NCBI GenBank assembly: GCA_902530885.1
Contig: CACABZ010000006.1
Span: forward strand, 1-33,314
Direction of reading: 5' to 3'
Source of the DNA: an uncultured Pelagibacteraceae bacterium
Lineage (GTDB): Bacteria; Pseudomonadota; Alphaproteobacteria; Pelagibacterales; Pelagibacteraceae
DNA: 33,314 nt
The notes under the pieces are model-generated. The model saw only the letters and a list, made by a program, of their open reading frames with translations. It searched no databases and was not told the origin of the DNA. Numbering within the stretch: position 1 is the first letter of the stretch; every line of letters begins with the position of its first letter. Shown here piece by piece: positions 2,579-26,078 of this stretch. The position numbers and the translations under genes are program-made.

Positions 2579-3445
2579 GTGAGCTTAAAACTTTCACCAT
2601 CTGACTACGAAGTATACATTCCGATAGCAGAATGGATTGAAAAACATATTAAGGAGTGGTTGTTTATGCAACGACCACTCTTTAAAAAATTATCTGCACC
2701 AATTGACTCAGTTTTAAACGGTTTAGACTCATTATTAAATTTTATACCATTTCCAATTGTAATTTTGATTTTCATGATATTTGCATTTAAAACAAATGGA
2801 ATTAAACTTGCAATTCTTTCAGCGTTAAGTTTAATTTTTATTGATCTAGTAGACTTATGGCAAGAAACAATGACAACACTAGCCATGATTTTTACAGCGG
2901 TTATTTTTTGCATGATAATTGGTATTCCATTAGGTATTGTTGCATCAAGGAGCAACTTATTTGAAGCAATTTTAAGACCGATACTTGATATAATGCAAAC
3001 TATTCCAAGTTTTGTCTATTTAATTCCAGTTGTAATGTTATTTGGTGTTGGGTTAACACCTGGAGTAATTGCAACCATAGTATTTGCATTACCACCAATT
3101 GTACGTTTAACTAATTTAGGTATTAGACAAGTAGGTAAGGGGTTTAAAGAAGCTGGAGCAAGTTTAGGATTAACTAGGTTTTTGATTTTAAGAAAAATAG
3201 AAATTCCTTTGGCAATGAAAACTATTATGGCGGGAGTAAACCAAACTTTAATGTTAGCTCTTTCGATGGTAGTCATAGCTGCTCTAATTGGAGCAGGGGG
3301 ATTAGGATTAACTGTGTACGTTGCTCTAGGTAGATTAGATATTGGTGGTGCCGTTATAGGAGGAACTGGTATTGTAATATTAGCAATAATTCTAGATAGA
3401 ATAACTCAAAAAATTATTCCTCAAGATAATATAAAATCTAGATAA
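2579..3445 (+). CDS. proW: Glycine betaine ABC transporter permease (ProW/OpuAB type)
   Basis: 288-residue integral membrane protein of the ProW/OpuAB family, the channel subunit for the ProX proteins encoded just upstream. After a soluble N-terminal stretch of about 55 residues there are several membrane segments. The BPD_transp_1 region carries MQTIPSFVYLIPVVMLFGVG and the EAA-type cytoplasmic loop (FKEAGASLGLTRFLILRKIEIPLA), which docks with the ATPase. The start is a GTG 12 bp after proX; no better ATG matches the family N-terminus. No ProV/OpuAA ATPase follows: the next gene is convergent. The ATPase must therefore be encoded elsewhere or lost from this locus. Confidence 0.9.
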   Translation: MSLKLSPSDYEVYIPIAEWIEKHIKEWLFMQRPLFKKLSAPIDSVLNGLDSLLNFIPFPIVILIFMIFAFKTNGIKLAILSALSLIFIDLVDLWQETMTTLAMIFTAVIFCMIIGIPLGIVASRSNLFEAILRPILDIMQTIPSFVYLIPVVMLFGVGLTPGVIATIVFALPPIVRLTNLGIRQVGKGFKEAGASLGLTRFLILRKIEIPLAMKTIMAGVNQTLMLALSMVVIAALIGAGGLGLTVYVALGRLDIGGAVIGGTGIVILAIILDRITQKIIPQDNIKSR

Positions 3446-3446
3446 T

Positions 3447-4292
3447 TTAATTAATTTTTCTCACAAAAAGAACAAAAATTATTGATGTCACAAACATAAT
3501 TAAAGCATAAGCTGCTGTCGGAACCATAAAGACAATATCATCAAATAATTGAGTAGCTACAAACACTGCTAACGTCCCATTTTGTAAACCACATTCAAGA
3601 GAGATACATTTTCTCTGAGGAATTCCTGAAGCAAAGATTTTAGCAATATAATAACCTAAGAAAATCATAGTTAGATTAAGAATAAAAGCTATTAAACCTG
3701 CTCTTGTGATAAAACTTATTATTCTGTCCCATTCTTCAATCCAAATAGATATAAAAACAATTAAAAATAATATTACTGATATCCTTTGAACTAATAATGT
3801 CTTAGAAATTATAAAATCAGTCATTAAATTTCTAACAATCATCCCTAAAAGTACCGGCACGGTTACTACAAAAAACATTTTAAGCGCGATATTTAACATT
3901 GAAATTTCTTTAAATATTTCAATACCTAAATAATTAGCTGAATTAAATACAAGCAAGGGGACTGTTAATATGCTTAGCAAGCTTACAACGGCAGTTAATG
4001 TTACTGATAAAGCAACATCTCCATCAGCAAACTTAGTTAATATGTTTGAAGTTACTCCACCAGGTGCAGCTGCAATAACCATGACACCCATAGCAATTTC
4101 TATAGGTAACGAAATCATACTAATTAATATAATAGCTACTATAGGAAGAAGAATGACTTGTGATAAAAAGCCTATAAGAAAATCTTTAGGATTTTTTACT
4201 ACCCTTAGAAAATCTTGAGCTGTTAAACCCAGTCCAAGACCGAACATAATAATAGCCAAACATATTGGCGCTATACTTTTTGCTATTTCCAC
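3447..4292 (-). CDS. BASS-family sodium/organic anion symporter
   Basis: 281-residue polytopic membrane protein of the bile acid:sodium symporter (BASS/SBF) superfamily, with about nine to ten hydrophobic helices. Family signatures are IMFGLGLGLTAQDF near the N-terminus, the discontinuous-helix motif AAPGGVTSNILTKFADGD (residues about 74-91), and the second crossover motif ECGLQNGTLAVFVA in the C-terminal half, where E and N/Q residues line the sodium sites. Bacterial members carry varied substrates such as pyruvate, pantothenate and other organic anions; this one cannot be assigned. It converges on proW with one base between stops and diverges from the iron operon. The start ATG leads directly into the first helix, giving the usual length. 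Confidence 0.85.
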   Translation of the reverse strand: MEIAKSIAPICLAIIMFGLGLGLTAQDFLRVVKNPKDFLIGFLSQVILLPIVAIILISMISLPIEIAMGVMVIAAAPGGVTSNILTKFADGDVALSVTLTAVVSLLSILTVPLLVFNSANYLGIEIFKEISMLNIALKMFFVVTVPVLLGMIVRNLMTDFIISKTLLVQRISVILFLIVFISIWIEEWDRIISFITRAGLIAFILNLTMIFLGYYIAKIFASGIPQRKCISLECGLQNGTLAVFVATQLFDDIVFMVPTAAYALIMFVTSIIFVLFVRKIN

Positions 4293-4390
4293 TTATTCCC
4301 TCGACGTTTTGATGCAACATATACATAAAGAGGGCCCAAAATGAAACAATCTTAGGTTGTGTTTTGTTCAACTTATGATAGATTCGAATT

Positions 4391-4531
4391 ATGAGAATCT
4401 TAGCTTCTAAAATTAAAAATGCCAAAGAGCTTAAGTATGGTAAGCTTAAAACTAACGTAATAAAGCCAAAAAACAATCTTCAGTCAGACTTTTACTATCT
4501 CTTTAAGAAGAAATCTTTAATCAAAAAATAA
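4391..4531 (+). CDS. Possible small basic protein, 46 aa
   Basis: ATG at 4391 opens a 46-codon frame ending TAA at 4531: MRILASKIKNAKELKYGKLK and onward to FYYLFKKKSLIKK. It is lysine-rich, with no signal peptide and no family I recognise. It occupies the otherwise empty gap between the divergent symporter gene and the iron operon. No Shine-Dalgarno is evident, and an inverted AGATTC/GAATCT pair straddles the ATG. It may be a real small protein or chance. Confidence 0.35.
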   Translation: MRILASKIKNAKELKYGKLKTNVIKPKNNLQSDFYYLFKKKSLIKK

Positions 4532-4568
4532 TTAATTAAATCATTTTACTGTGTAAGGTGCGACATTA

Positions 4569-4617
4569 TTGATAATGATAATTATTATCATTCTCAGGTA
4601 ATTGAGAACCATTCGCA
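4569..4617 (+). promoter_or_regulatory. Fur box upstream of the iron transport operon
   Basis: GATAATGATAATTATTATC at 4571-4589 differs at one position from the classical 19-bp Fur consensus. The hexamer array continues as ATTCTC (4590-4595). A second, weaker site-like stretch, TGAGAACCATTCGC, follows at 4603-4616. The cluster lies about 20-70 bp before the fbpA-like start, which has the very strong leader GGGGGGAAAAATG. The GATAAT hexamers could themselves serve as the -10 element, so repressor binding would block polymerase directly. Confidence 0.85.
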
Positions 4618-4636
4618 AAAAAAAAAGGGGGGAAAA

Positions 4637-5647
4637 ATGAGAAAAATAATATTAACAGTTTCAGCATTATTTTTTGTTTTTGGAAATCTTTTAGCTAACG
4701 AAGTAAATATATTCAGTGCAAGACATTATGATTCAGATGTTCAATTGTATGAAAAATTTACAGCTAAAACTGGAATAAAAGTAAATGTTGTTTCTGGAAA
4801 ATCGGGGGCATTAGAGAAAAGAATTATCGCAGAGGGTGGCACAGCAGACTTATATATAACAGCTGATGCTGGCAGACTTGGCGCATTTGCAGCTAATTTA
4901 CAAGGCGGTTTAACTAGCGACGCAATAAAGTCAGCAGTCCCAGGTAATTTTAGAACTTCTAAATGGGTTGGAATTGCTAAAAGAGCAAGAATAGTATATT
5001 TCGCCCCAGAAAGAGTTACAGGTGCAGAACTAAGAGGTCTAACTTATGAAAGTTTGGCTGATCCTAAATGGAAAGGCAGATTAGTTATAAGAGCTTCAAA
5101 CAATATTTATAACCAATCACTCGTTGCTTCATTAATTAAAAATAATGGAAAAGGTAAAGTAGCAGAGTGGTCAAAAGGAATGGTCTCGAATATGGCTAGA
5201 TCTCCAAAAGGTAATGACAGAGCACAAATACTAGCAGTAGCAGCAGGTGAAGCTGATATTGCTGTAGCTAATACATACTACTTAGCTCTTATGTTATCAG
5301 GTAAAAAAGGTGAGGAGCAGCAAGCTGCAGCAAAAAAAGTAAAACCTTTTTTTCCTAATCAAGACGGTAGAGGAACACACATGAATATCAGTGGTGCTGG
5401 TTTAGTAAAAGGAGCTCCTAATAAAGCTAACGCAATTAAGCTTGTAGAGTTTTTATTAAGTCAAGAAGCGCAAGAGCATATTGTTAACAATACTTTTGAG
5501 TACCCAATGATAGCAGGTGTTTCACCTCATCCCTTAGTAGTTAATATGGGATTAGATTTTAAACAAGATTTAAAAACTAAGGTCGTAAACTACGGTAAAA
5601 GACAGGCTGATGCATTAGAAGTAATGACAGCAGCAGGCTGGAAATAG
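4637..5647 (+). CDS. fbpA: Ferric iron ABC transporter substrate-binding protein
   Basis: 336-residue periplasmic ferric-binding protein (FbpA/SfuA/FutA group), which delivers Fe3+ to the permease and ATPase encoded downstream. Signal peptide at residues 1-20 (NLLA|NEV). The mature protein opens NIFSARHYDSDVQLYEKFTAKTGI, the family signature containing the first tyrosine ligand. YFAPERV, GRLVIRASNNIYNQS and DIAVANTYYLALM follow, the last holding the adjacent tyrosine pair (YY) that co-ordinates iron. The length is normal. The start is fixed by a GGGGGG ribosome binding site. It is first in an operon under a near-consensus Fur box, so it should be induced when iron is scarce. An extended hairpin lies immediately after the stop. 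Confidence 0.92.
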   Translation: MRKIILTVSALFFVFGNLLANEVNIFSARHYDSDVQLYEKFTAKTGIKVNVVSGKSGALEKRIIAEGGTADLYITADAGRLGAFAANLQGGLTSDAIKSAVPGNFRTSKWVGIAKRARIVYFAPERVTGAELRGLTYESLADPKWKGRLVIRASNNIYNQSLVASLIKNNGKGKVAEWSKGMVSNMARSPKGNDRAQILAVAAGEADIAVANTYYLALMLSGKKGEEQQAAAKKVKPFFPNQDGRGTHMNISGAGLVKGAPNKANAIKLVEFLLSQEAQEHIVNNTFEYPMIAGVSPHPLVVNMGLDFKQDLKTKVVNYGKRQADALEVMTAAGWK

Positions 5648-5655
5648 TTGGTTAA

Positions 5656-5723
5656 TTCATGGGGCGAACAAACAAAAAAATTAATTTAAATAAATTAAAA
5701 ACTGGTTGTTCGCCTTGCATGAA
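5656..5723 (+). promoter_or_regulatory. Extended hairpin just after fbpA
   Basis: TTCATG (5656-5661) pairs with CATGAA (5718-5723), and GGCGAACAA (5663-5671) pairs with TTGTTCGCC (5706-5714). The stem therefore has 15 pairs, with a G/TTG internal bulge and a 34-base AT-rich loop. It begins 9 bases after the fbpA stop. No U-tract follows, so it looks less like a terminator than an mRNA 3'-end stabiliser, or a structure hiding the ATG at 5659. Confidence 0.65.
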
Positions 5724-5826
5724 TGAAGCTAAAATAATGGAACAAAAAATTTCAAATAGAAAAATTTCAGATTTAAAAGTTGAGGAAATAAAATCAATAA
5801 TTTCATCAATTTTTAAAAATAAATAA
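5659..5826 (+). CDS. Possible small CxxC protein, 55 aa, between iron transport genes
   Basis: ATG at 5659 opens a 55-codon frame to TAA at 5826. The product begins MGRTNKKINL, has KTGCSPCMNEAKIMEQ in the middle and ends SIISSIFKNK. It has no signal peptide. The two cysteines (GCSPC, residues 16-20) and the helical, charged C-terminus make a metal- or thiol-binding small cytoplasmic protein possible. It lies on the coding strand between fbpA and fbpB, where it could be co-regulated by iron. Its start codon lies within the stem of the 5656-5723 hairpin and it lacks a clear ribosome binding site. I do not recognise a family. The alternative is that only the hairpin matters and the frame is incidental. 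Confidence 0.45.
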   Translation: MGRTNKKINLNKLKTGCSPCMNEAKIMEQKISNRKISDLKVEEIKSIISSIFKNK

Positions 5827-5842
5827 AAGTTTGACGTCAATA

Positions 5843-5895
5843 TCTCTGGTTTTAAATGCTAGCTTTATATTCAACCGAGCCGCTTTAGCCAGAGA
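5843..5895. repeat. Inverted repeat before fbpB
   Basis: TCTCTGG (5843-5849) and CCAGAGA (5889-5895) form a perfect 7-bp inverted repeat around a 39-base loop, ending 17 bases before the fbpB ATG. It could fold in the mRNA leader of the permease gene. There is no T-run, so a terminator is unlikely. Confidence 0.4.
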
Positions 5896-5911
5896 TTAAG
5901 TATATAAATTT

Positions 5912-7528
5912 ATGATAAAATATAATGTATGGTTTTTTAGTTCTCTGTTAATTGCTTTAATAGTTGCCTTACCAATTATAACCGTTTTTTTTAGTTTTTT
6001 TAATGAAACAAGTAATTATTTTACTATATTAAAAAACACATTTCTTTTTGATTACATAAATAATTCATTATTAATTTTAATTTCAGTTTTGCTTATAACT
6101 TTTTTATTAGGCGTTATTTCAGCTTATTTTGTATCATTTTACGAATTTCCATTTTGCAATTTCTTTAGTTGGGCTCTAATTTTAGCCTTTGCAATACCAG
6201 GTTATATATTTGCTTTTTCAATAATTGCTTTTTTCGAAAATTATGGAACAGCTTATACAATACTCACAAGTATGTTTGGAGAATATAATTATAATCCGCG
6301 CATACCAAAATTAGATGGAATATTAGGATCAATTATAGCTATAAGTTTTTCTTTGTTTCCTTATGTATACGTATTAACAAGATCATCATTTTTCTTTCAA
6401 TCAAACAATTATATAGAGGTAGGTCAAAATTTAGGTTTATCTGAGAAAGAAACATTTTTTAAGATTATTTTACCTTCTGCAAGACCAGCTATTATTGCTG
6501 GGCTAGCTTTAGTAGCTATGGAATGCTTATCCGACTTTGGAACAGTATCAATTTTTAGCGTTTCAACATTGACTACAGGCATTTATAACTCTTGGCTTTC
6601 ATTTGATGATCTAAATACAGCTAATCAAATTTCATTCATTCTACTATTGTTTATTTTAATCCTTTTATCTGTAGAAATTTATTCTAGAAAAGAAGCAAAG
6701 TATCATCAACCGGAAAGAGGTTTCAAACCAATTAATAAGATTAAACTTAGCGGAAAAAAATCTTTGCTAGCTTTTTCTTTTTGCTTTTTAGTATTTTTTG
6801 TAAGTTTTATTTTTCCAGTTTCACAGATGATTTATTGGACTTTAAAATTTCCAAAATATATCCAAGACATCAATATTCTGAAAATTAATTTAAATACGAT
6901 GTATTTAGTTGGTCTTGCTAGTATAGTTTTAGTATTTATTTCATTATTTATAAATTATGGGAGCAGGATATCCAAAAGTAAAATTTTAAATTATCTAACC
7001 AATTTTTCAATTTCAGGGTATGCAATCCCAGGCGTGATTTTAGCCGTGGCCTTTATAACTTTATTTAGCAATATAAGTGAAATATTAAATGAAAATACAA
7101 ATTTAGGAAGTACAAAAAAACTATTTATAGGATCTATTTTTGGTTTAGTTCTAGCATATTTTATAAGATTCTTTTCTCTTTCTTTTAATGGTATTAAATC
7201 TAGTTACGAAAAAATAAATAATTCTATTGATGAAAGTGCGTATTTGCTTGGATATTCAAAAATTAAAACTTTTTCCAGAATTCACGTCCCGTATTTAAAA
7301 AATAACATAATTTTAATAATTGTTCTAATTTCACTTGAAATTATTAAAGAACTACCGATAACAATGATATTAAGACCCTTCAATTTTGAAACTTTTGCTA
7401 CTCAAGCATATGTTTATGCGTCTCAAGATTTATTAGAAGCTGCGGCATTGCCTTCTTTGTTTCTTATTAGTTGGGCAACTATCCTCATAATATTCTCTTC
7501 AAAATATATACTTTCACAAAAAAACTAA
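5912..7528 (+). CDS. fbpB: Ferric iron ABC transporter permease, two fused domains
   Basis: 538-residue inner-membrane protein with about twelve hydrophobic helices arranged as two BPD_transp_1 modules, the normal FbpB/SfuB design in which one polypeptide forms both halves of the channel. The first module carries the loop YIEVGQNLGLSEKETFFKIILPSARPAIIAG (residues about 168-198), the second SIDESAYLLGYSKIKTFSRIHVPYLKNN. Both are EAA-type loops that contact the ATPase. The ATPase gene starts 12 bp downstream. The upstream 264-bp gap from fbpA holds two inverted repeats and a possible small ORF, which may uncouple its expression from that of the binding protein. Confidence 0.92.
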   Translation: MIKYNVWFFSSLLIALIVALPIITVFFSFFNETSNYFTILKNTFLFDYINNSLLILISVLLITFLLGVISAYFVSFYEFPFCNFFSWALILAFAIPGYIFAFSIIAFFENYGTAYTILTSMFGEYNYNPRIPKLDGILGSIIAISFSLFPYVYVLTRSSFFFQSNNYIEVGQNLGLSEKETFFKIILPSARPAIIAGLALVAMECLSDFGTVSIFSVSTLTTGIYNSWLSFDDLNTANQISFILLLFILILLSVEIYSRKEAKYHQPERGFKPINKIKLSGKKSLLAFSFCFLVFFVSFIFPVSQMIYWTLKFPKYIQDINILKINLNTMYLVGLASIVLVFISLFINYGSRISKSKILNYLTNFSISGYAIPGVILAVAFITLFSNISEILNENTNLGSTKKLFIGSIFGLVLAYFIRFFSLSFNGIKSSYEKINNSIDESAYLLGYSKIKTFSRIHVPYLKNNIILIIVLISLEIIKELPITMILRPFNFETFATQAYVYASQDLLEAAALPSLFLISWATILIIFSSKYILSQKN

Positions 7529-18572: not shown

Positions 18573-18648
18573 TGGCTCCTCGGGCAGGACTCGAACCTGC
18601 GACCAATTGATTAACAGTCAACTGCTCTACCAACTGAGCTACCGAGGA
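18573..18648 (-). tRNA. tRNA-Asn (anticodon GTT), CCA encoded
   Basis: The minus-strand cloverleaf has acceptor TCCTCGG pairing with CCGAGGA, discriminator G and encoded CCA. The D-arm is GCTCAGTTGGTAGAGC, the anticodon loop CTGTTAA within TTGA/TCAA stems, and the T-arm GCAGG-TTCGAGT-CCTGC. It abuts the XRE gene stop and lies 46 bp from the tRNA-Cys fragment that starts the island. Confidence 0.96.
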
Positions 18649-18694: not shown

Positions 18695-18739
18695 TGGAGG
18701 CCGCGCCCAGAATCGAACTGGGATAAAAGGATTTGCAAT
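18695..18739 (-). repeat. Partial tRNA-Cys (3' half), left attachment-site copy
   Basis: These 45 bases equal the intact tRNA-Cys from CCA through the T-arm to the anticodon loop (TTGCAA), with one change in the acceptor strand (G for A at 18703). Beyond 18739 the match dissolves: the 5' half, D-arm and anticodon-stem partner are absent, so it cannot be a working tRNA. Confidence 0.85.
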
Positions 18740-18863
18740 ATTCTGGATTCACAATATCCGTTCTCTCTGGTACTCTTATACGCTCTTATAATAAGGGAAA
18801 CAGTCATATTTTATATTCAACCTAAAAGAGTTATTATATAATCAAAAAAAATGATTTCGACAA

Positions 18864-18887
18864 ACCAGTCCCTAGACCAGTCCTTAA
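18864..18887 (+). repeat. Tandem 12-bp repeat, left end of island
   Basis: ACCAGTCCCTAG (18864-18875) is followed directly by ACCAGTCCTTAA (18876-18887). The same unit pair recurs inside the right end at 23193-23215 in the same orientation. It lies about 125 bp inside the left tRNA-Cys copy and 13 bp before the first island gene. Candidate arm-type recombinase sites; an operator for the first gene is the alternative. Confidence 0.75.
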
Positions 18888-18900
18888 GGATATATCTGTA

Positions 18901-19119
18901 ATGAAAAAATTTGTAATCATATTATTAGTTTTCTATTTAAACTCTATAGCTGTTTTGTACGCAGAAAAAAATAATAAAAATAAAATTGATTTTGATTGGT
19001 TTAATTCCGAGGAATATAAAATGATTAAAAAAATGCAAAACTGCAAAGTTAAGTATCTCGACGGCTCTTCTGGAACTTGCAATCCATATAACTCATATAG
19101 GAACCCTAATTTAAGATGA
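18901..19119 (+). CDS. Small secreted protein of unknown function, island ORF 1
   Basis: 72 residues: a clear signal peptide (MKKFVIILLVFYLNSIAVLYA, cut near residue 21) and a short mature part. That part has an acidic/lysine segment (DFDWFNSEEYKMIKKMQ) and a cysteine pair in NCKVKYLDGSSGTCNPYNSY that could form a disulfide. No family recognised. AAGGA lies ten bases upstream, immediately after the tandem repeat. The next gene overlaps by four bases (ATGA), so the pair is co-translated. Confidence 0.65.
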   Translation: MKKFVIILLVFYLNSIAVLYAEKNNKNKIDFDWFNSEEYKMIKKMQNCKVKYLDGSSGTCNPYNSYRNPNLR

Positions 19120-19655
19120 AATTGATAAAACCAATCTTAGTAATCTTTATTTTTTTTATAGTCGTCTCATGTGTTCCAAGGTCACTATCTGTAGCACAAA
19201 AAAATGCTTGTATGGCACCAAGTGCAAATTTCAAAGCTTTGGATGCCATTCATTCTACAAAAATTCATGCAATTTTATGGGCCAAAAAATTTGCTAAACA
19301 AGCTTCCTCAAAAGAATTAAGTTTAAGTGACAAATGTAGACAAACACAAATTTTAATTAAAGCTTTGTATGGCTTAAGAGATGGTGAAAGTGCATCATGG
19401 GAAAACCCTCAAAATAATACATCAGGTAAAGTTAAAGTTTTAAACACAATAGTTCAAACCGGTGCTTGGGGTTACGGAGGCTGTAGGGATTATTTATCTT
19501 ATATTAAAATTGATGACAAAGTAGATACTTTTAAATTTAGGGCCTGCCCCAAAGAATTAGGCACCTTCGAACTGGTTGATAGCGCAGGTTTTCCAATACC
19601 CGGTCATTTATATTTCGCAGGTTGGTATTTTTATGATTATAGATTTTTTGAATGA
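19116..19655 (+). CDS. Lipoprotein with 17-kDa surface-antigen-like C-terminal domain, island ORF 2
   Basis: 179 residues. The signal peptide ends in a lipobox (FIVVSC, Cys19), so the protein should be lipidated. The C-terminal half, from GESASWENPQNNTSGKVKVL through GGCRDYLSYIKIDDKVDTFKFRACPKELGTFELVD, resembles the domain of rickettsial 17-kDa/RT0821-Lpp0805-type surface proteins, where WxNPxTGNSG is followed by CREY and ACR strands. The middle segment (residues about 45-80) is helical and not familiar. Overlaps both neighbours by four bases, indicating an operon. Probably an outer-membrane-associated protein; role unknown. Confidence 0.7.
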   Translation: MKLIKPILVIFIFFIVVSCVPRSLSVAQKNACMAPSANFKALDAIHSTKIHAILWAKKFAKQASSKELSLSDKCRQTQILIKALYGLRDGESASWENPQNNTSGKVKVLNTIVQTGAWGYGGCRDYLSYIKIDDKVDTFKFRACPKELGTFELVDSAGFPIPGHLYFAGWYFYDYRFFE

Positions 19656-19963
19656 AAAAAATAATTCCTTTATTTATCTTTTTATATAGCTGTACAAATA
19701 CTGGTTCATCTATAAAAGACTCTCCAGGCATTAAAAACGTTCAAAAAGATAAATGTGAAATTGTTTCTTTTTTTTCTTCAAATGAAAATAAACAAATAGT
19801 GAAGTGTGATAGCGGTTATAATTTCCAAATGCCCAAAGAAGAAATTGATAGTAACTCATGTAAATTAGAGAGATACAGGGTAAATTTGGGTGGTTCTTAT
19901 ACGATTAAAGAAAGTTTGAAATGCAAAGACTTTGAAAATGAAAACATTATTACTATATATTAA
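19652..19963 (+). CDS. Small cysteine-patterned lipoprotein, island ORF 3
   Basis: 103 residues. The signal peptide MKKIIPLFIFLYSC ends in a lipobox cysteine (Cys14). The mature part holds Cys35, Cys52, Cys70 and Cys91, likely two disulfides in the periplasm. The 18- and 21-residue spacings of the last three cysteines equal those in the island protein at 20939-21208, and both have a CD after the second mature cysteine, so the two look like divergent paralogues. No known family. It overlaps the preceding gene by four bases and the next by 32. Confidence 0.65.
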   Translation: MKKIIPLFIFLYSCTNTGSSIKDSPGIKNVQKDKCEIVSFFSSNENKQIVKCDSGYNFQMPKEEIDSNSCKLERYRVNLGGSYTIKESLKCKDFENENIITIY

Positions 19964-20447
19964 AAAAATAAATATCCTTACTTTTCTAATATTATTTATT
20001 TTATCTCCTTCTCAGGTTAAGAGTGAAAATTTGAATATTTTTACAGAAACACCAATTATAGTTAATCCAGAGAGTGAATATGAAGGTTTTTTATTTGATC
20101 TTATAATTGATAAAATGGTTTACCATTATTATAAAATTCCCAGTGAAGGAGTAAAAAAACATAATTCGACTTTATTTTTATCTATTAGCGATCCCACACA
20201 CGGAAAAATATATAGTTGGAAAAGTGGAAAATTTTATGGATTAATTAGAATGATTTCATCCAAAAAAGAAAAAGAAAATATTTGTAGAATTTGGCAAGAA
20301 GAAATTGGAAAGTTTACCAACGTTGATAATTACGGTAAAAATTCGTATGTGAGAGTGACTAATAAAATTGGTTCTAACAAAGCATGTTTTAATCTTGATA
20401 AGGGAAAGTGGGTGATGGTTGACGAAAATTATCACTTTAAAAACTAA
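19932..20447 (+). CDS. Exported protein of unknown function, island ORF 4
   Basis: 171 residues, or 169 from the ATG at 19938. A hydrophobic signal sequence (INILTFLILFILSPSQVKS) is preceded by lysines, and cleavage after about residue 31 leaves ENLNIFTETP. The mature part contains DPTHGKIYSWKSGKFYGLIRMIS, two cysteines (NICRIW, KACFN) and ends KWVMVDENYHFKN. No family recognised. It starts 32 bp inside the preceding gene in another frame, an unusually deep overlap, so the 19938 start or re-initiation is plausible. Confidence 0.6.
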   Translation: MKMKTLLLYIKKINILTFLILFILSPSQVKSENLNIFTETPIIVNPESEYEGFLFDLIIDKMVYHYYKIPSEGVKKHNSTLFLSISDPTHGKIYSWKSGKFYGLIRMISSKKEKENICRIWQEEIGKFTNVDNYGKNSYVRVTNKIGSNKACFNLDKGKWVMVDENYHFKN

Positions 20448-20469
20448 TTAAAAGTAAGTATAAATAATT

Positions 20470-20946
20470 ATGAAAAAGGTGTTAATTATAATAAGTTTAT
20501 TATTATTTACGTTCGCATGTTCTTCAACTTATAAAGTTAAACCTTATAAAGATAAAACTCCTGATTGGTATATTGTTGATAAAGATGAATGGAGAACGGT
20601 TTATGGGAAGGCTCTAGGAGAGTCTGAGTCTCTTGAAATGGCGTCACGAAAAGCAGAGGCACTTGCTGTAAGTAATATTATTTTTAAAATTAAAAGCGAG
20701 CTTGACGCGACAAAAAAAGTTTATTTACAAGATAGATACAAGAAAGTAGACGGTAAAGTATCATCCACTCAAAAAAATAATTTTGAAGAAAAAATAACTA
20801 TTGCTTTAGATAATTATCAAATTTCAAAATATAGAGTTTCAAACAAAGAAGTTTTTAGAAATGATAATAATTATAAAGTATTTGTTGAAGTAGCCTTTAA
20901 AAAAAAAGAATTATTTAAATCGTTAGACAAAATCAATATTGATTAA
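20470..20946 (+). CDS. LPP20-like lipoprotein, island ORF 5
   Basis: 158 residues. The signal peptide MKKVLIIISLLLFTFAC has a lipobox cysteine at residue 17. The mature part has the LPP20-family layout: a PDWY motif (KTPDWYIVDKDEWRTVYGKALGE), then an alanine-rich helix (SLEMASRKAEALAVSNI), a polar middle (YLQDRYKKVDGKVS) and a strand region (YKVFVEVAFKKKELF). LPP20 proteins are outer-membrane-associated and of uncertain function. It overlaps the next gene by eight bases. Confidence 0.65.
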   Translation: MKKVLIIISLLLFTFACSSTYKVKPYKDKTPDWYIVDKDEWRTVYGKALGESESLEMASRKAEALAVSNIIFKIKSELDATKKVYLQDRYKKVDGKVSSTQKNNFEEKITIALDNYQISKYRVSNKEVFRNDNNYKVFVEVAFKKKELFKSLDKINID

Positions 20947-21208
20947 GTTTTTTCCATTATTAATCAGTTTAATCCTTTTTTCATGCACTAAGCAAAATAT
21001 AAAATTTCATAAAGCATGTAATTTTAAAACCATAAAAGGTAAAGAGGTTCTAGTATGTGATGAGAGGATGTTAAGAAAAGTAAAATCAATTAATTATGAA
21101 AATAGAGATTGTGAAAAATTTGAATATTTGACTGTAATAAATGGGGTGGAAACAGAAAATGAGGGAATTAAATGTAAAACACCCTATGGTTATGAAGTAA
21201 TAAGGTAA
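20939..21208 (+). CDS. Small cysteine-patterned lipoprotein, island ORF 6
   Basis: 89 residues from a TTG start, chosen because only it gives a proper lipoprotein signal (MIKFFPLLISLILFSC, Cys16). The mature part has Cys27, Cys40, Cys58 and Cys79. Spacings 40-58 (18) and 58-79 (21) are the same as in the island lipoprotein at 19652-19963, and both have CD at the second site and a KC near the end. Likely a diverged duplicate of that gene. Function unknown; expected in the periplasm on a lipid anchor. Confidence 0.6.
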   Translation: MIKFFPLLISLILFSCTKQNIKFHKACNFKTIKGKEVLVCDERMLRKVKSINYENRDCEKFEYLTVINGVETENEGIKCKTPYGYEVIR

Positions 21209-21243
21209 TTGAATTTATTTTTTATATTTCATAAGATATTTTC

Positions 21244-21378
21244 ATGAAAAATTTAATTATTATCATAATTTTGGTTATCCTTTTCAGTTCTGAGGTATTA
21301 ATTTTTAAAAAAAAAAATTGGAATAAATTAGTAGAAAAAACAGGACAGCAATATGAAAGAATTATGGAAAAGTTTTAA
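21244..21378 (+). CDS. Possible 44-aa single-helix membrane protein, island ORF 7
   Basis: ATG at 21244 opens a 44-codon frame to TAA at 21378: MKNLIIIIILVILFSSEVLI, then a short basic tail FKKKNWNKLVEKTGQQYERI. It has one strongly hydrophobic segment, so it is a small membrane-anchored or secreted peptide. It fills the gap between ORF 6 and the large gene and overlaps the latter by 26 bases. No family recognised. Confidence 0.45.
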   Translation: MKNLIIIIILVILFSSEVLIFKKKNWNKLVEKTGQQYERIMEKF

Positions 21379-23173
21379 AGTTCTTCTCTTTTTTTTAATT
21401 TACCCGTTTTATTCTCATTCAATCGAATTGAATGAATATGGCTTAAATCAAAACAGTTTTTCTGAGTTACAAGAACTAAGAACACTATATATTACTGGTG
21501 AAGAAGTAAATTATATAGATCCTGAAGACACTGAAAATTTGTCTAAAATAAAAGATTTTTATTTAAATATTAATTTTTTATCTGATGAGGAAAATACAAT
21601 TTATCAATTTTGTTGCAAATCTAATAATGATGTCAATTTAATTTTTAAAGGCAAACTTAATGGCGCAGAAGAAAAATTTAAAACCTTAAGTCCTAGAGAG
21701 GTTCATGACTTAGATAAGCAAATAAAAGTAAAAAATTTTTTAGTATTTAATGAAAATGGCAAATTAACAAAATCAGTTTATATTAAGGATAACACTTTTA
21801 ATGTGTTTCAAATAACCCCTGAAGAACAAACTTACACACTGCTTTTTAATTCTCAATTACAATTCAAAAATACTATTACATCAATGAATGAAGTTAATTG
21901 GAGTGATTTATCTTTAGGTGATTTTGTTTTATCGATAGAGTTTGGACCTAATTATACCCTTATTACAGATATAGCTTCACGTGTTAATGTTTTTAAAATA
22001 CCAAAACTAGGTTATTTTATTATTCTAGATGAAAAAAGTAATAAGATTATTTATACAGATGAAAAACTTAAAAAAATTAAATATCACGGAGATTATACCG
22101 AAAATGTTGATGTACAAAATCCATCTAGTTTTTTAAATCCAACATTATTAAATTTTTTACCAACCGAATTCAAAAAAATATTAGATAAAGGACGAGAAAT
22201 AAATTCAAATTATCCATTAAATTACACTTTAGACAACATTATAGATTTAGTAAGCAATGTTGAAACACTTAATGCTGACAATGTTAATTTTGCTAAACAA
22301 AAAGAAAATGAGTTACAAAATGCAATACAAAAAAAACAAGCTGAGCTCAAAGCAGAAGAAGATAGAGCTAATGCAGAAAAACTTAAAGCCGCTCAATTAG
22401 AAGAGCAAAAAGCTGAGGAGGAGCGTCAAAGAATTTTAGATCAAAAAGCTGAAGAAGAAAACCAAAGGATGTTAATCGAACTAGAGGAAGCAGAAGCAGC
22501 AGAAAAAAGAAAAAAATACATGCAATATGGAATTATAATATTAATTTCTGCAGGATTTATAGCACTTGCTTTCTTAACTAATTTTTTGCATTATATTAAA
22601 GAATTTTTTAACCAAATATTTGGTAGTATGAAAAAAAAGCGGAAAAGTTTTTTACCCAAAAGTGTTTTAGATAAGCATAAGAAATCACAAAAGAAAACAG
22701 GCGACTGGATAGCAGATTGGGCAAATAATCAAGGAAGTCCAAAAGCTGCAGCTTTTATGATTACCGGAATTTCAATTTTCTTTTTTTTCTTACTTTTAGC
22801 GCTTGATAGTAAGATGGATGAATTTCCTGGATTAGGTTACTTTCTTGGCGTGCTGATTGCAGGATCCGGTTTAATCGCATGGAAACTTTGGCGTGGAGTC
22901 TTTACTTACTATTGTCCAAAATGCCAAAAAATTTATGTTGGTGAAATTCTGTCTTCAAAACATATCGGCTCTCAACAACAAGCAAGAACATATAGAGTGA
23001 GAGACAGAAGAACAGTTAGATATGGAAAATATCAAAATAAGACAAGCAACTATACAGTTGAAAGAGATGAAACTGGAGTAGAACAAGTTGATACTTATCA
23101 CAACAAAGTTAAATGCAAACTTTGTAGTCACAAGTGGGAATACAATTCTTCAACATCAACACGTGTAGCTTAA
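21353..23173 (+). CDS. Large exported/membrane protein with coiled coil and split zinc ribbon, island ORF 8
   Basis: 606 residues. A signal peptide (about 1-23, ending HSIE) is followed by about 280 residues of beta-rich exported sequence with no known match. Next is a charged coiled coil rich in A, E, K and Q (about 315-388), then membrane segments near 391-412, 466-487 and 494-512. The C-terminal tail has YYCPKC (Cys521, Cys524) and KCKLC (Cys588, Cys591), a four-cysteine zinc ribbon with a 63-residue basic insert. Predicted topology puts the coiled coil in the periplasm and the ribbon in the cytoplasm. The coiled coil resembles TolA-like low-complexity helices but that is no evidence of homology. 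It is the last gene before the right-end repeats. Confidence 0.75.
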   Translation: MKELWKSFKVLLFFLIYPFYSHSIELNEYGLNQNSFSELQELRTLYITGEEVNYIDPEDTENLSKIKDFYLNINFLSDEENTIYQFCCKSNNDVNLIFKGKLNGAEEKFKTLSPREVHDLDKQIKVKNFLVFNENGKLTKSVYIKDNTFNVFQITPEEQTYTLLFNSQLQFKNTITSMNEVNWSDLSLGDFVLSIEFGPNYTLITDIASRVNVFKIPKLGYFIILDEKSNKIIYTDEKLKKIKYHGDYTENVDVQNPSSFLNPTLLNFLPTEFKKILDKGREINSNYPLNYTLDNIIDLVSNVETLNADNVNFAKQKENELQNAIQKKQAELKAEEDRANAEKLKAAQLEEQKAEEERQRILDQKAEEENQRMLIELEEAEAAEKRKKYMQYGIIILISAGFIALAFLTNFLHYIKEFFNQIFGSMKKKRKSFLPKSVLDKHKKSQKKTGDWIADWANNQGSPKAAAFMITGISIFFFFLLLALDSKMDEFPGLGYFLGVLIAGSGLIAWKLWRGVFTYYCPKCQKIYVGEILSSKHIGSQQQARTYRVRDRRTVRYGKYQNKTSNYTVERDETGVEQVDTYHNKVKCKLCSHKWEYNSSTSTRVA

Positions 23174-23192
23174 AATATAGGATTAATTGGAT

Positions 23193-23215
23193 ACCAGTCC
23201 TTAACCAGTCCCTGA
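23193..23215 (+). repeat. Tandem repeat, right end of island
   Basis: ACCAGTCCTTAA (23193-23204) and ACCAGTCCCTGA (23204-23215) are the same unit as at 18864-18887, here with an 11-bp period, in the same orientation. They lie 19 bp after the last island gene and 43 bp from the tRNA-Cys 3' end, where arm-type sites are often found. Confidence 0.75.
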
Positions 23216-23258
23216 AGTGGGTAAATTAGTTATTTGTATCCAAAATTATTGATTTTAC

Positions 23259-23332
23259 TGGAGGCCACGCCCAGAATCGAACTGGGATAAAAGGATTTGC
23301 AATCCTCTGCGTAACCATTCCGCCACGTGGCC
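23259..23332 (-). tRNA. tRNA-Cys (anticodon GCA), intact; right boundary of island
   Basis: The minus-strand cloverleaf has acceptor GGCCACG pairing with CGTGGCC, discriminator T and encoded CCA. D-arm GGCGGAATGGTTACGC, anticodon arm AGGAT-TGCAAA-TCC with GCA, and T-arm CCCAG-TTCGATT-CTGGG. Its 3' half is repeated at 18695-18739, so this gene is the inferred integration target, restored on insertion. Confidence 0.96.
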
Positions 23333-23429: not shown

Positions 23430-26078
23430 ATGGAATTTAAAAAGTATAATCACCTAGAAGAAGAAAAAAAAATCTCAGATTTTTGGATTAAAAAAGGTTT
23501 GTTTAAACCCAAAAAAACTCATCTTAAGAAAAATTTTTCAATTGTAATTCCGCCACCAAATGTAACAGGAAGGTTACATATGGGCCATGCATTAAACAAT
23601 AGTATTCAAGATGTTTTAATTAGATATAATCGGATGAAAGGTTTTGAAGCATTATGGCAACCTGGAACTGATCACGCAGGAATTGCCACACAAGCAGTTG
23701 TGGAGAAAAATTTAATTAAAAATGGTGATAAAAAAAATGAATTGGGAAGAGAAAAATTTATTAAAAAAGTTTGGGAATGGAAGGAAGAGTCTGGTGGGAT
23801 AATTTTAGATCAACTTAAAAAATTAGGATGTTCATGTGACTGGTCGAGAACAAGATTCACAATGGACGAAGATTTATCCAGGGCTGTAATAAAAGTTTTT
23901 GTAGATTTATATAATGCTGGTTTAATTTATAAAGATAAAAAATTAGTTAATTGGGATACCCATTTACAAACTGCAATCTCAGATTTAGAGGTGATACAAA
24001 AAGAGGTACAATCTCAATTATATTATATTGATTATCAAATTGAAAACTCCGATGAAAAAATTACAATCGCTACAACTAGACCAGAAACAATGATGGGTGA
24101 TACTGCAGTTGCAGTAAATCCCAAAGACGAAAGGTATAAAAACTTAGTAGGTAAAAATGTAAGAATTCCAATAGTTAATAGAATTGTCAAAATTATAGCA
24201 GATCAATATGCTGATCCTGAACAAGGATCAGGAGCGGTTAAAATAACCCCCGCTCATGATTTTAATGATTATATCGTCGGCAAAAGAAATAAATTACAAA
24301 TAATCAATATTTTTGAAAAAAATGGAAATATAAATCAAAATGGTATTAAAAGTTATGTGGGTCTCGATAGATTTGAAGCAAGAAAAACTTTAATAAATCA
24401 ATTAAAAGAAAATGGTAATTTATTAAAAATTGAAAATATAAATAATAAAGTTCCTTATGGAGACAGATCAAATACAATAATTGAACCACTTTTAACAGAG
24501 CAATGGTTCGTACATGCCAAAAAATTATCAAAAAAACCTATTCAAGTAGTTAAAGAAGGTAAAACTTCTTTTTTTCCAAATAATTGGTCAAAGATATTTC
24601 ATCAATGGATGAAAAATATAGAACCTTGGTGTATATCGAGACAAATTTGGTGGGGCCACAGAATACCAGCTTGGTATGATGATAAAAACAATATCTTTGT
24701 TGCAGAGAATGAAAAATTAGCACTTTCTATGGCAAAGAAAAAAAATAAAAATAAAAATTTTAATTTAAGACAAGAAACAGATGTTCTTGATACATGGTTT
24801 TCATCTGCATTATGGCCTTTTGCTACCCTAGGATGGCCAAAAAAAACAAAAGAGTTTTCAAAATTTTATCCAACATCCGTTTTAGTAACAGGGTTTGATA
24901 TAATATTTTTTTGGGTAGCAAGAATGTTAATGATGGGAAATTATTTTAATAAGTATACACCTTTTCGAAAAGTCTATGTTCATGCTTTAGTGAGAGATGA
25001 AAAGGGACAAAAAATGTCAAAATCGAAAGGTAATGTAATTGATCCAGTTGAATTAATAAATGAGTACGGAGCAGATAGTTTACGATTTACTTTAATTTCA
25101 ATGGCTTCACCAGGTAGAGATGTAAAGTTATCAAAAGACCGTGTTACTGGATATAGAAATTTTATAACCAAAATATGGAGTGCAAATAATTTCTTAAAAT
25201 TAAATAATTGTAAATTAGACGAAAAGATTAATATGAAATTTATAAAACTTCCTATTAATCAATGGATATTTAATGAGTATATTAAAGCCCAAAATCTAGT
25301 ATCACAAAATATTGATATTTTTAGGTTTGATGAGGCTGCAAAAAATGTATATCAATTTGTATGGCATTTTTATTGCGATTGGTATTTAGAGTTTTTAAAG
25401 CCGATTTTTAATTCAAAAAACAAATCAGAAATCAAAGAGGCAAAAATCTTTTCTTCCTTTATGATGGCAAATATTTTAAGATTACTCCATCCATTTATAC
25501 CTTTTTTTACAGAATCTATTTGGGCAACAAATAAATACAAATCAACTTTCAAAGATTATTTAATTTCTTCATCTTGGCCTAACTATAAAAAATCAACCAA
25601 ATTTAAAAAAAACCAGAATGACATTAATGATATCATTGAATTAATTACTAGCATAAGATCTACGAAGGCAGAATTAAAAATTACACCAAAATTGTTCTGC
25701 AATATCTCTTTTTCAGATAAAGCAGGTAAATTAAGGAATTTGATAAATAATAATATTAATTTAATTCAACAAGTCGGTAGAGTTAAAGGGATAATCGAAA
25801 AAAAACAAAAAACTGAAAATTCTGTCGAAATACTAGTTTTAAAGGAAAAATTATCATTAAGTTTTAGTGAGGATATAAATCTAGCTTCTCAAAAAGAGAG
25901 AATTATACAAAAATTAGAACACTTAAAAAAACAAATAGATGGATTAAATAATAAGTTAGAAAACAAGGCTTATTTGAAAAACGCCCCGAAAGAAATAGTA
26001 CAAAATGACAAAAAATTAGTCAAAGAATTAACTATTGAAGATAATAAATTAAGAAGTATTGTATCGAGTATTAATTAA
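23430..26078 (+). CDS. valS: Valyl-tRNA synthetase
   Basis: 882-residue class I aminoacyl-tRNA synthetase that charges tRNA-Val. The HIGH-type site is [18 protein letters not shown] (about residues 36-53). The editing domain contains [17 protein letters not shown]. The ACPGSD-like region has [17 protein letters not shown], the KMSKS loop is [12 protein letters not shown] (about 529-540), and an anticodon-binding domain follows. The C-terminal 65 residues form the tRNA-contacting coiled coil typical of ValRS ([19 protein letters not shown]). The length is normal. The start ATG is preceded by an AT-rich 98-bp leader after tRNA-Cys. ilvD follows after two bases, linking valine charging with valine synthesis. 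Confidence 0.96.

Follow-up and report, generated by a model that had tools for sequence, protein, structure and literature searches.

How does a block of genes come to lie within a tRNA gene when it encodes no recombinase of its own? This question was raised by a 33,314-nucleotide stretch of DNA from an uncultured SAR11 bacterium of the Pelagibacteraceae (contig CACABZ010000006.1), the whole of which is referred to below as the window. In it, a duplicated 3' half of the tRNA-Cys gene bracketed a block of about 4.5 kb. Recognised mobile elements are scarce in the small genomes of SAR11, whose gene content is nevertheless very variable. We propose, with a probability of roughly 0.7, that the block was a non-autonomous integrative cassette that would integrate at tRNA-Cys by means of an integrase supplied in trans.

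Insertion site and gene content of the island

Positions 18695-18739 and 23259-23303 of the window agreed at 44 of 45 bases, as the original prediction had stated, and the match could be extended to 56 nt at 91% identity. The core identity stopped at the anticodon loop, at the end of GGATTTGCAAT. Empty sites, which the same prediction had proposed to look for, were present in 93 genomes of the same genus, where the tRNA-Asn and tRNA-Cys genes were separated by 44-51 bp with nothing between them. The spacing from tRNA-Asn to the partial tRNA-Cys copy in the window was 46 bp, and the window flanks, when joined at the core, gave the empty allele of genome G026. Since empty alleles were common and the joined flanks matched one of them, the 45-bp copy was a half-tRNA displaced by insertion and not an ancient tandem duplicate, so that neither of the two outcomes named beforehand as speaking against an insertion was observed. 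The displaced half-tRNA was found only where an island was present. As judged from these alignments, the element sat in the anticodon loop of tRNA-Cys and had swapped the 3' half of the tRNA for its own copy.

Eight same-strand open reading frames (ORFs), one of 44 aa and the others of 72-606 aa, were located between the two cores. Pfam and PHROGs scans gave no integrase, relaxase or replication family among the island ORFs, and no conjugation remnant was seen in the island. A profile hidden Markov model (HMM) was built from eight SAR11 and pelagiphage integrases. The HMM and tblastn searches with these eight integrases reached a best E-value of about 0.7 in the window island versus 1e-143 for the control, and the profile search revealed no integrase remnant in eight islands. 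Taken together, these searches bore out the earlier claim that no integrase, transfer or replication gene lay inside the block.

Paired end motifs and sister islands

Each end of the island carried a tandem pair of the motif ACCAGTCC with a spacing of 11-12 bp, a feature that the original prediction did not mention. The motif occurred four times in the window against 0.18 copies expected, and all four copies were at the island ends. Moreover, when the two 200-bp ends were shuffled 20,000 times, no shared tandem 8-mer pair arose. Relative to the anticodon core, the pairs were placed at about +135/+147 and -100/-89, and the offsets of the left arms were constant in four islands although the intervening spacer was divergent. 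We also scanned 257 Gb of sequence from about 85,000 species genomes with the pattern ACCAGTCCYTAN{0,1}ACCRGTCC. Close forms of the pair were recovered in nine stretches, six of them from SAR11 and all six at tRNA-Cys, while the other three had no tRNA nearby; the chance expectation by a uniform-base estimate was about 15 stretches collection-wide and hardly any in the small SAR11 fraction.

SAR11 elements located at tRNA-Met, -Glu, -Asn and -Ser showed the same paired layout just upstream of their integrase genes. Two such elements belonged to the window's genus and encoded integrases of a 327-328-aa class. Namely, the first (L293 6518-11711, 5.1 kb, at tRNA-Met) also had an AAA-domain protein and a few small genes, and the second (L291 7010-11257, 4.2 kb, at tRNA-Glu) had one further large gene and a few small ones. 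Both carried pairs at their two ends, and in each the left pair was closely followed by the integrase gene. In other genera, six further integrases of this family were preceded by a pair spaced 11-12 bp apart, and pairs were thus found just upstream of every inspected integrase of that one SAR11 family. In the tRNA-Cys cassettes, the position behind the left pair, often with a AAGGATATA-like box, was followed by cargo instead of an integrase. Because the same layout occurred upstream of integrases, the paired motifs were most likely integrase arm sites, and the architecture points to arm-type sites read by the N-terminal domain of the integrase. The shared end layout also suggests common ancestry of the cassettes and the integrase-bearing elements. 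Several SAR11 elements with an integrase had, ahead of the start of that gene, boxes similar to the AAGGATATAT box behind the left arms of the window, and the window box was possibly a promoter.

The sister islands supplied the alternative cargo at the same site that the original prediction had named as a sign of a mobile hotspot. The island of AG-919-M05 (G079, 4.1 kb) encoded SNase (8.5e-18) and TerB (6e-9) proteins, a 588-aa membrane protein and a 295-aa coiled-coil protein. A fused type I methylase/specificity protein (1e-191) and a type I restriction enzyme (2e-40) were encoded in that of AG-915-L04 (G482, 5.6 kb). In SAG-MED41 (G422, 5.2 kb) the first six genes of the window had homologues, and a MORN protein replaced the 606-aa one. 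Two further islands were truncated at a contig end: the one in AG-457-M20 carried the cargo of the window, and the one in AH-326-D14 had the AG-919-M05 cargo. The sample comprised five complete and four partial islands, all of them without an integrase and with motif pairs at fixed spacing at their ends. By these comparisons, the sister cassettes combined the same ends with unrelated cargo and lacked an integrase.

Several cassettes had other arm motifs. Genome G014 carried the SNase/TerB cargo but a pair of the form GCACGAG...GCACGAG at +139/+150. This pair occurred in two of 169 genomes of the genus (G014 and G424), adjoining tRNA-Cys in both; G424 was 7% contaminated and its GCACGAG contig had a different neighbour gene. 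On that contig (C48; L256 1-1400) the other neighbour of the tRNA-Cys was a nitrilase-like gene. The contig was probably a contaminant, and the cassette family may therefore extend beyond the genus. In another genus, G309 had a 1.9-kb element whose single gene encoded a 525-aa zinc-finger protein (DUF4379, 9e-48). Its two ends carried GGCACGA pairs, and among 121 genomes this motif was found in paired form only there. Finally, G408 from a further genus had cores at 1541, 2917 and 4299 (coordinates of the joined, reversed L316+L311) and TTGACCA/TGGTCAA pairs at +139/+150, -97/-86, +139/+150 and -105/-94, an arrangement that would fit two cassettes in a row at tRNA-Cys. In the second cassette, the paired motif was the same but inverted relative to the first; together with the completeness of both outer tRNA copies, this suggested a more complex history of the apparent array (C21, about 3336-6174). 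A different tRNA 3' half was seen at the far end of G408. A 246-aa gene of G408, taken by eye for a lone arm-binding domain, had no Pfam or PHROGs match and was dropped.

The cargo had moved between species. Four window genes differed from their AG-457-M20 copies at a synonymous divergence (dS) of 0.23-0.31 and the 606-aa gene at 0.55, against 1.08 for the adjacent valS; between AG-919-M05 and AH-326-D14, dS was 0.39 for the 295-aa gene and 1.90 for valS. Since the cargo values were far below those of valS, the cargo was transferred after the chromosomes had diverged. Furthermore, G014 and AG-919-M05 had cargo in common with different arm motifs, while AG-915-L04 and SAG-MED41 had a near-identical right end with different cargo, suggesting that ends and cargo were exchanged as modules. 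These comparisons demonstrated lateral spread of the cargo at the level of gene sequences.

Table 1. Features of the island and its flanks in the window
Feature	Position	Strand	Basis or remark
tRNA-Asn, conserved left flank	18573..18648	-	ARAGORN; syntenic in relatives
Displaced tRNA-Cys 3' half, left attachment (att) core ending at anticodon loop	18695..18739	-	44/45 identity; empty-site alignment
Core extension ATTCTGGATTCACAATATCCGTTCTCTCTGGTACTCT, island side	18740..18776	+	Left-end alignment; strongly conserved in three sister islands, recognisable in G014
Left arm site 1, ACCAGTCC	18864..18871	+	Offset 168/169 from core in four islands
Left arm site 2, ACCAGTCC	18876..18883	+	Offset 180/181 in four islands; ACCGGTCC in G079
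AAGGATATAT box after arm pair	18886..18895	+	
72-aa secreted small protein	18901..19119	+	Signal peptide by inspection; 80-aa protein at same position in SAG-MED41
179-aa putative lipoprotein	19116..19655	+	Weak 17-kDa-antigen match, E 0.0098, below cut-off
103-aa putative lipoprotein	19652..19963	+	
169-aa secreted protein	19938..20447	+	
158-aa putative lipoprotein	20470..20946	+	Weak LPP20 match, below cut-off
89-aa putative lipoprotein	20939..21208	+	
606-aa membrane protein	21353..23173	+	Signal peptide, coiled coil, hydrophobic segments, C-terminal CxxC pairs
Right arm site 1, ACCAGTCC	23193..23200	+	66 bp before tRNA 3' end, four islands
Right arm site 2, ACCAGTCC	23204..23211	+	54/55 bp before tRNA 3' end
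tRNA-Cys (gca), intact; 3' half 23259-23303 = right att core supplied by element	23259..23332	-	ARAGORN; repeat match; empty-site alignment
valS, conserved right flank	23430..26078	+	ORF list; relatives

Proposed mobilisation in trans and its alternatives

The cassettes are most likely acted on in trans. In the proposed scheme, a tyrosine integrase akin to the SAR11 enzymes of 327-335 aa would bind the paired motifs with its N-terminal domain, and a helper element or phage would bring a matching tRNA-Cys-specific integrase into the cell. This integrase would bridge the core and the arms and excise the cassette as a circle, which could then insert into a free tRNA-Cys. Between cells, a cassette might travel by co-packaging, transduction or natural uptake. 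The cargo probably pays for its carriage, with a type I restriction-modification system in a sister island and envelope proteins in the window.

Several points weighed against this proposal. No integrase with ACCAGTCC, GCACGAG or GGCACGA arms at tRNA-Cys was found in the viral contigs, phage records and genomes searched. The window genome was 64% complete, and a helper may lie in the missing part. Few members were known (five complete islands, four partial ones and one apparent array). Lastly, homologous recombination between the flanks could account for the movement of the cargo.

The search for a helper covered several sources. In the viral contigs, ACCAGTCC pairs occurred in 110 stretches, close to the chance level of a uniform-base estimate, and none was at a tRNA-Cys core; stricter forms of this pair were coding repeats or lacked a tRNA context. 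The GCACGAG and GGCACGA pairs in these contigs likewise had no tRNA-Cys core, a pair in L326 was inside the reading frame of an unrelated integrase, and the core extension was absent from the viral contigs searched. Among the non-Xer integrases of 169 genomes of the genus, the tRNA-adjacent ones were located at Leu, Glu, Met, Val and Pro, and none was at tRNA-Cys.

The most serious alternative, although an unlikely one, was that each island represented a decayed prophage, satellite or integrative and conjugative element which had lost its integrase independently and was stranded like a classical cis-mobilizable element (CIME). CIMEs lack integration and transfer genes but keep both att ends, a definition that fitted the cassette literally and by which it is CIME-like (PMC5704250). 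The failure to find a helper was also compatible with decay, as were insertions of 10.6-11 kb at the tRNA-Cys site of G015 and G478, which had neither att duplicates nor arm pairs, as would be expected of old stranded elements. On the other hand, integrase or replication remnants were present in none of eight islands, and the arm pairs and their spacing were kept in divergent elements. The cargo had been transferred recently in comparison with its chromosomal neighbours, and independent decay would hardly account for the unrelated cargoes, the one-gene 1.9-kb version and the apparent array. The original prediction had left the choice between a non-autonomous and a decayed element open; the former fits better because all nine complete and partial islands, while lacking an integrase, keep their end pairs at fixed spacing.

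A still less probable explanation was that a tRNA-Cys integrase of pelagiphage relatives of the HTVC019P type mobilises the cassettes through the core alone, with the pairs serving some other DNA-binding protein. In keeping with this idea, the integrase of the uncultured pelagiphages L158 and L159 adjoined a copy of this tRNA-Cys 3' half, matching at 44/45 and equally oriented, and integration of HTVC022P at tRNA-Cys has been reported (PMC12753301). However, the phage attachment site (attP) of L158/L159 had no paired motifs and their integrase lacked the N-terminal domain. As for HTVC022P (L305, MH598798), its attP at about 4040-4085 carried the 5' half of tRNA-Cys, suggesting integration at the same anticodon loop with a polarity opposite to that of the cassettes, and it was dropped as a helper since its attP held the other tRNA half. 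The core match of HTVC019P was not an attP but belonged to the phage's own, apparently complete tRNA-Cys gene (L302 1501-1574).

The least credible explanation, which we regarded as very improbable, was a homologous-recombination hotspot in which alleles from tRNA-Asn to valS were swapped through conserved flanks and the ends were relics of one ancient integration: SAR11 recombines readily, the flanking tRNAs and valS were conserved, and the two sister islands with near-identical right ends and different cargo looked like products of inter-island recombination, but different arm motifs at the same distances, the apparent three-core array and tRNA-Cys islands in several genera were left unexplained, and, valS being much more diverged than the cargo, an exchanged tract could extend no more than a few hundred bases past the island.

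The non-autonomous cassette reading can be extended to a two-part SAR11 system, a proposal to which we give slightly less than even odds. Recombinase-less cassettes would carry arm-pair address codes (ACCAGTCC, GCACGAG, GGCACGA or TTGACCA), and integrase elements, each reading one code, would move any matching cassette. The cassettes would then queue in one tRNA anticodon as an analogue of integron arrays, spreading phage defence and envelope genes among these highly streamlined, free-living bacteria.

Relation to known elements and further observations

The part of the literature covered by our search contained no account of cassettes of this kind in SAR11. A 2007 study described one hypervariable region flanked by tRNA genes and another holding an integrase gene (PMC2217521). 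The likeness to CIMEs included a core duplication, a conserved extension and arm pairs at both ends of a cassette without integration or transfer genes. Known CIMEs, however, have been described as arising by decay, in most cases in tandem with another element, whereas the SAR11 cassettes recurred across several genera, had interchangeable cargo and differed in their arm motifs, and no parent element was linked to them. Helper-dependent elements are a wide class that includes clusters of attC sites lacking integron integrases (CALIN) and miniature inverted-repeat transposable elements (MITEs), that is, cargo or empty units relying on the recombinase of another element (PMC11389934). The cassettes would resemble them in this dependence but differed in their site, which consisted of a tRNA anticodon core and paired arms rather than attC hairpins or terminal inverted repeats.

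Small size, tRNA genes of marine or streamlined bacteria as sites and exchangeable cargo were also features of tycheposons, phage-inducible chromosomal minimalist islands (PICMI) and virion-encapsidated integrative mobilizable elements (VEIME). Tycheposons contain a tyrosine recombinase gene (PMC10872708), while the cassette, although tRNA-associated and cargo-bearing, encoded none. Unlike phage satellites such as phage-inducible chromosomal islands (PICI), PICMI and VEIME, it had no integrase and no recognised replication or packaging gene. Thus, the cassette was neither a tycheposon nor a phage satellite as these are defined. It also differed from the HTVC022P-type tRNA-Cys prophage in attP polarity and in having no phage family match. 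A close likeness in layout was to the L293 and L291 elements of the same genus, which were 4-5 kb long with a half-tRNA duplication and arm pairs at both ends; they had the 327-328-aa integrase behind the left arms and a large gene where the cassettes had cargo. As a separate observation, the L293 and L291 elements may themselves be phage satellites of the genus.

Cassettes as small as 1.9 kb without a mobility gene would escape integrase-based detectors, and the paired arm motif provides a simple DNA signature for locating both cassettes and helper integrases in single-cell and metagenome data. Since at least one cassette carried type I restriction-modification cargo, the system may spread phage resistance.

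The cargo of the window appeared to be a set of envelope proteins and lipoproteins that may change the cell surface. No PHROGs family matched it below E 0.04. The 179-aa putative lipoprotein had relatives at 52% and 35% identity and the 606-aa membrane protein had one at 40% in G339; structure models of the two were poor, with predicted local distance difference test (pLDDT) scores of 58 and 42, respectively. Relatives of four window cargo genes were found in a rearranged order adjoining tRNA-Arg in G339, from another genus (L045 9595-13374). No tRNA duplication was seen there, suggesting that the cargo also lives outside tRNA-Cys.

An inverted repeat, TTTGAGTC...TTTGACTCCAAA, was conserved between the right arms and the core in islands with longer right spacing (L186 13541-13568, L187 1118-1145 and L256 1346-1373). 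It was common to two arm types and was possibly an accessory or excisionase site.

The larger insertions of G015 and G478 lay between tRNA-Cys and tRNA-Asn (L037 7592-18529 and L215 2478-12971). Inspection of their genes by eye pointed to a ligand-gated ion channel and two proteases, one caspase-like and one trypsin-like, and the L037 insertion also had relatives of the TerB and 588-aa genes. These insertions possibly represented an older defence cluster.

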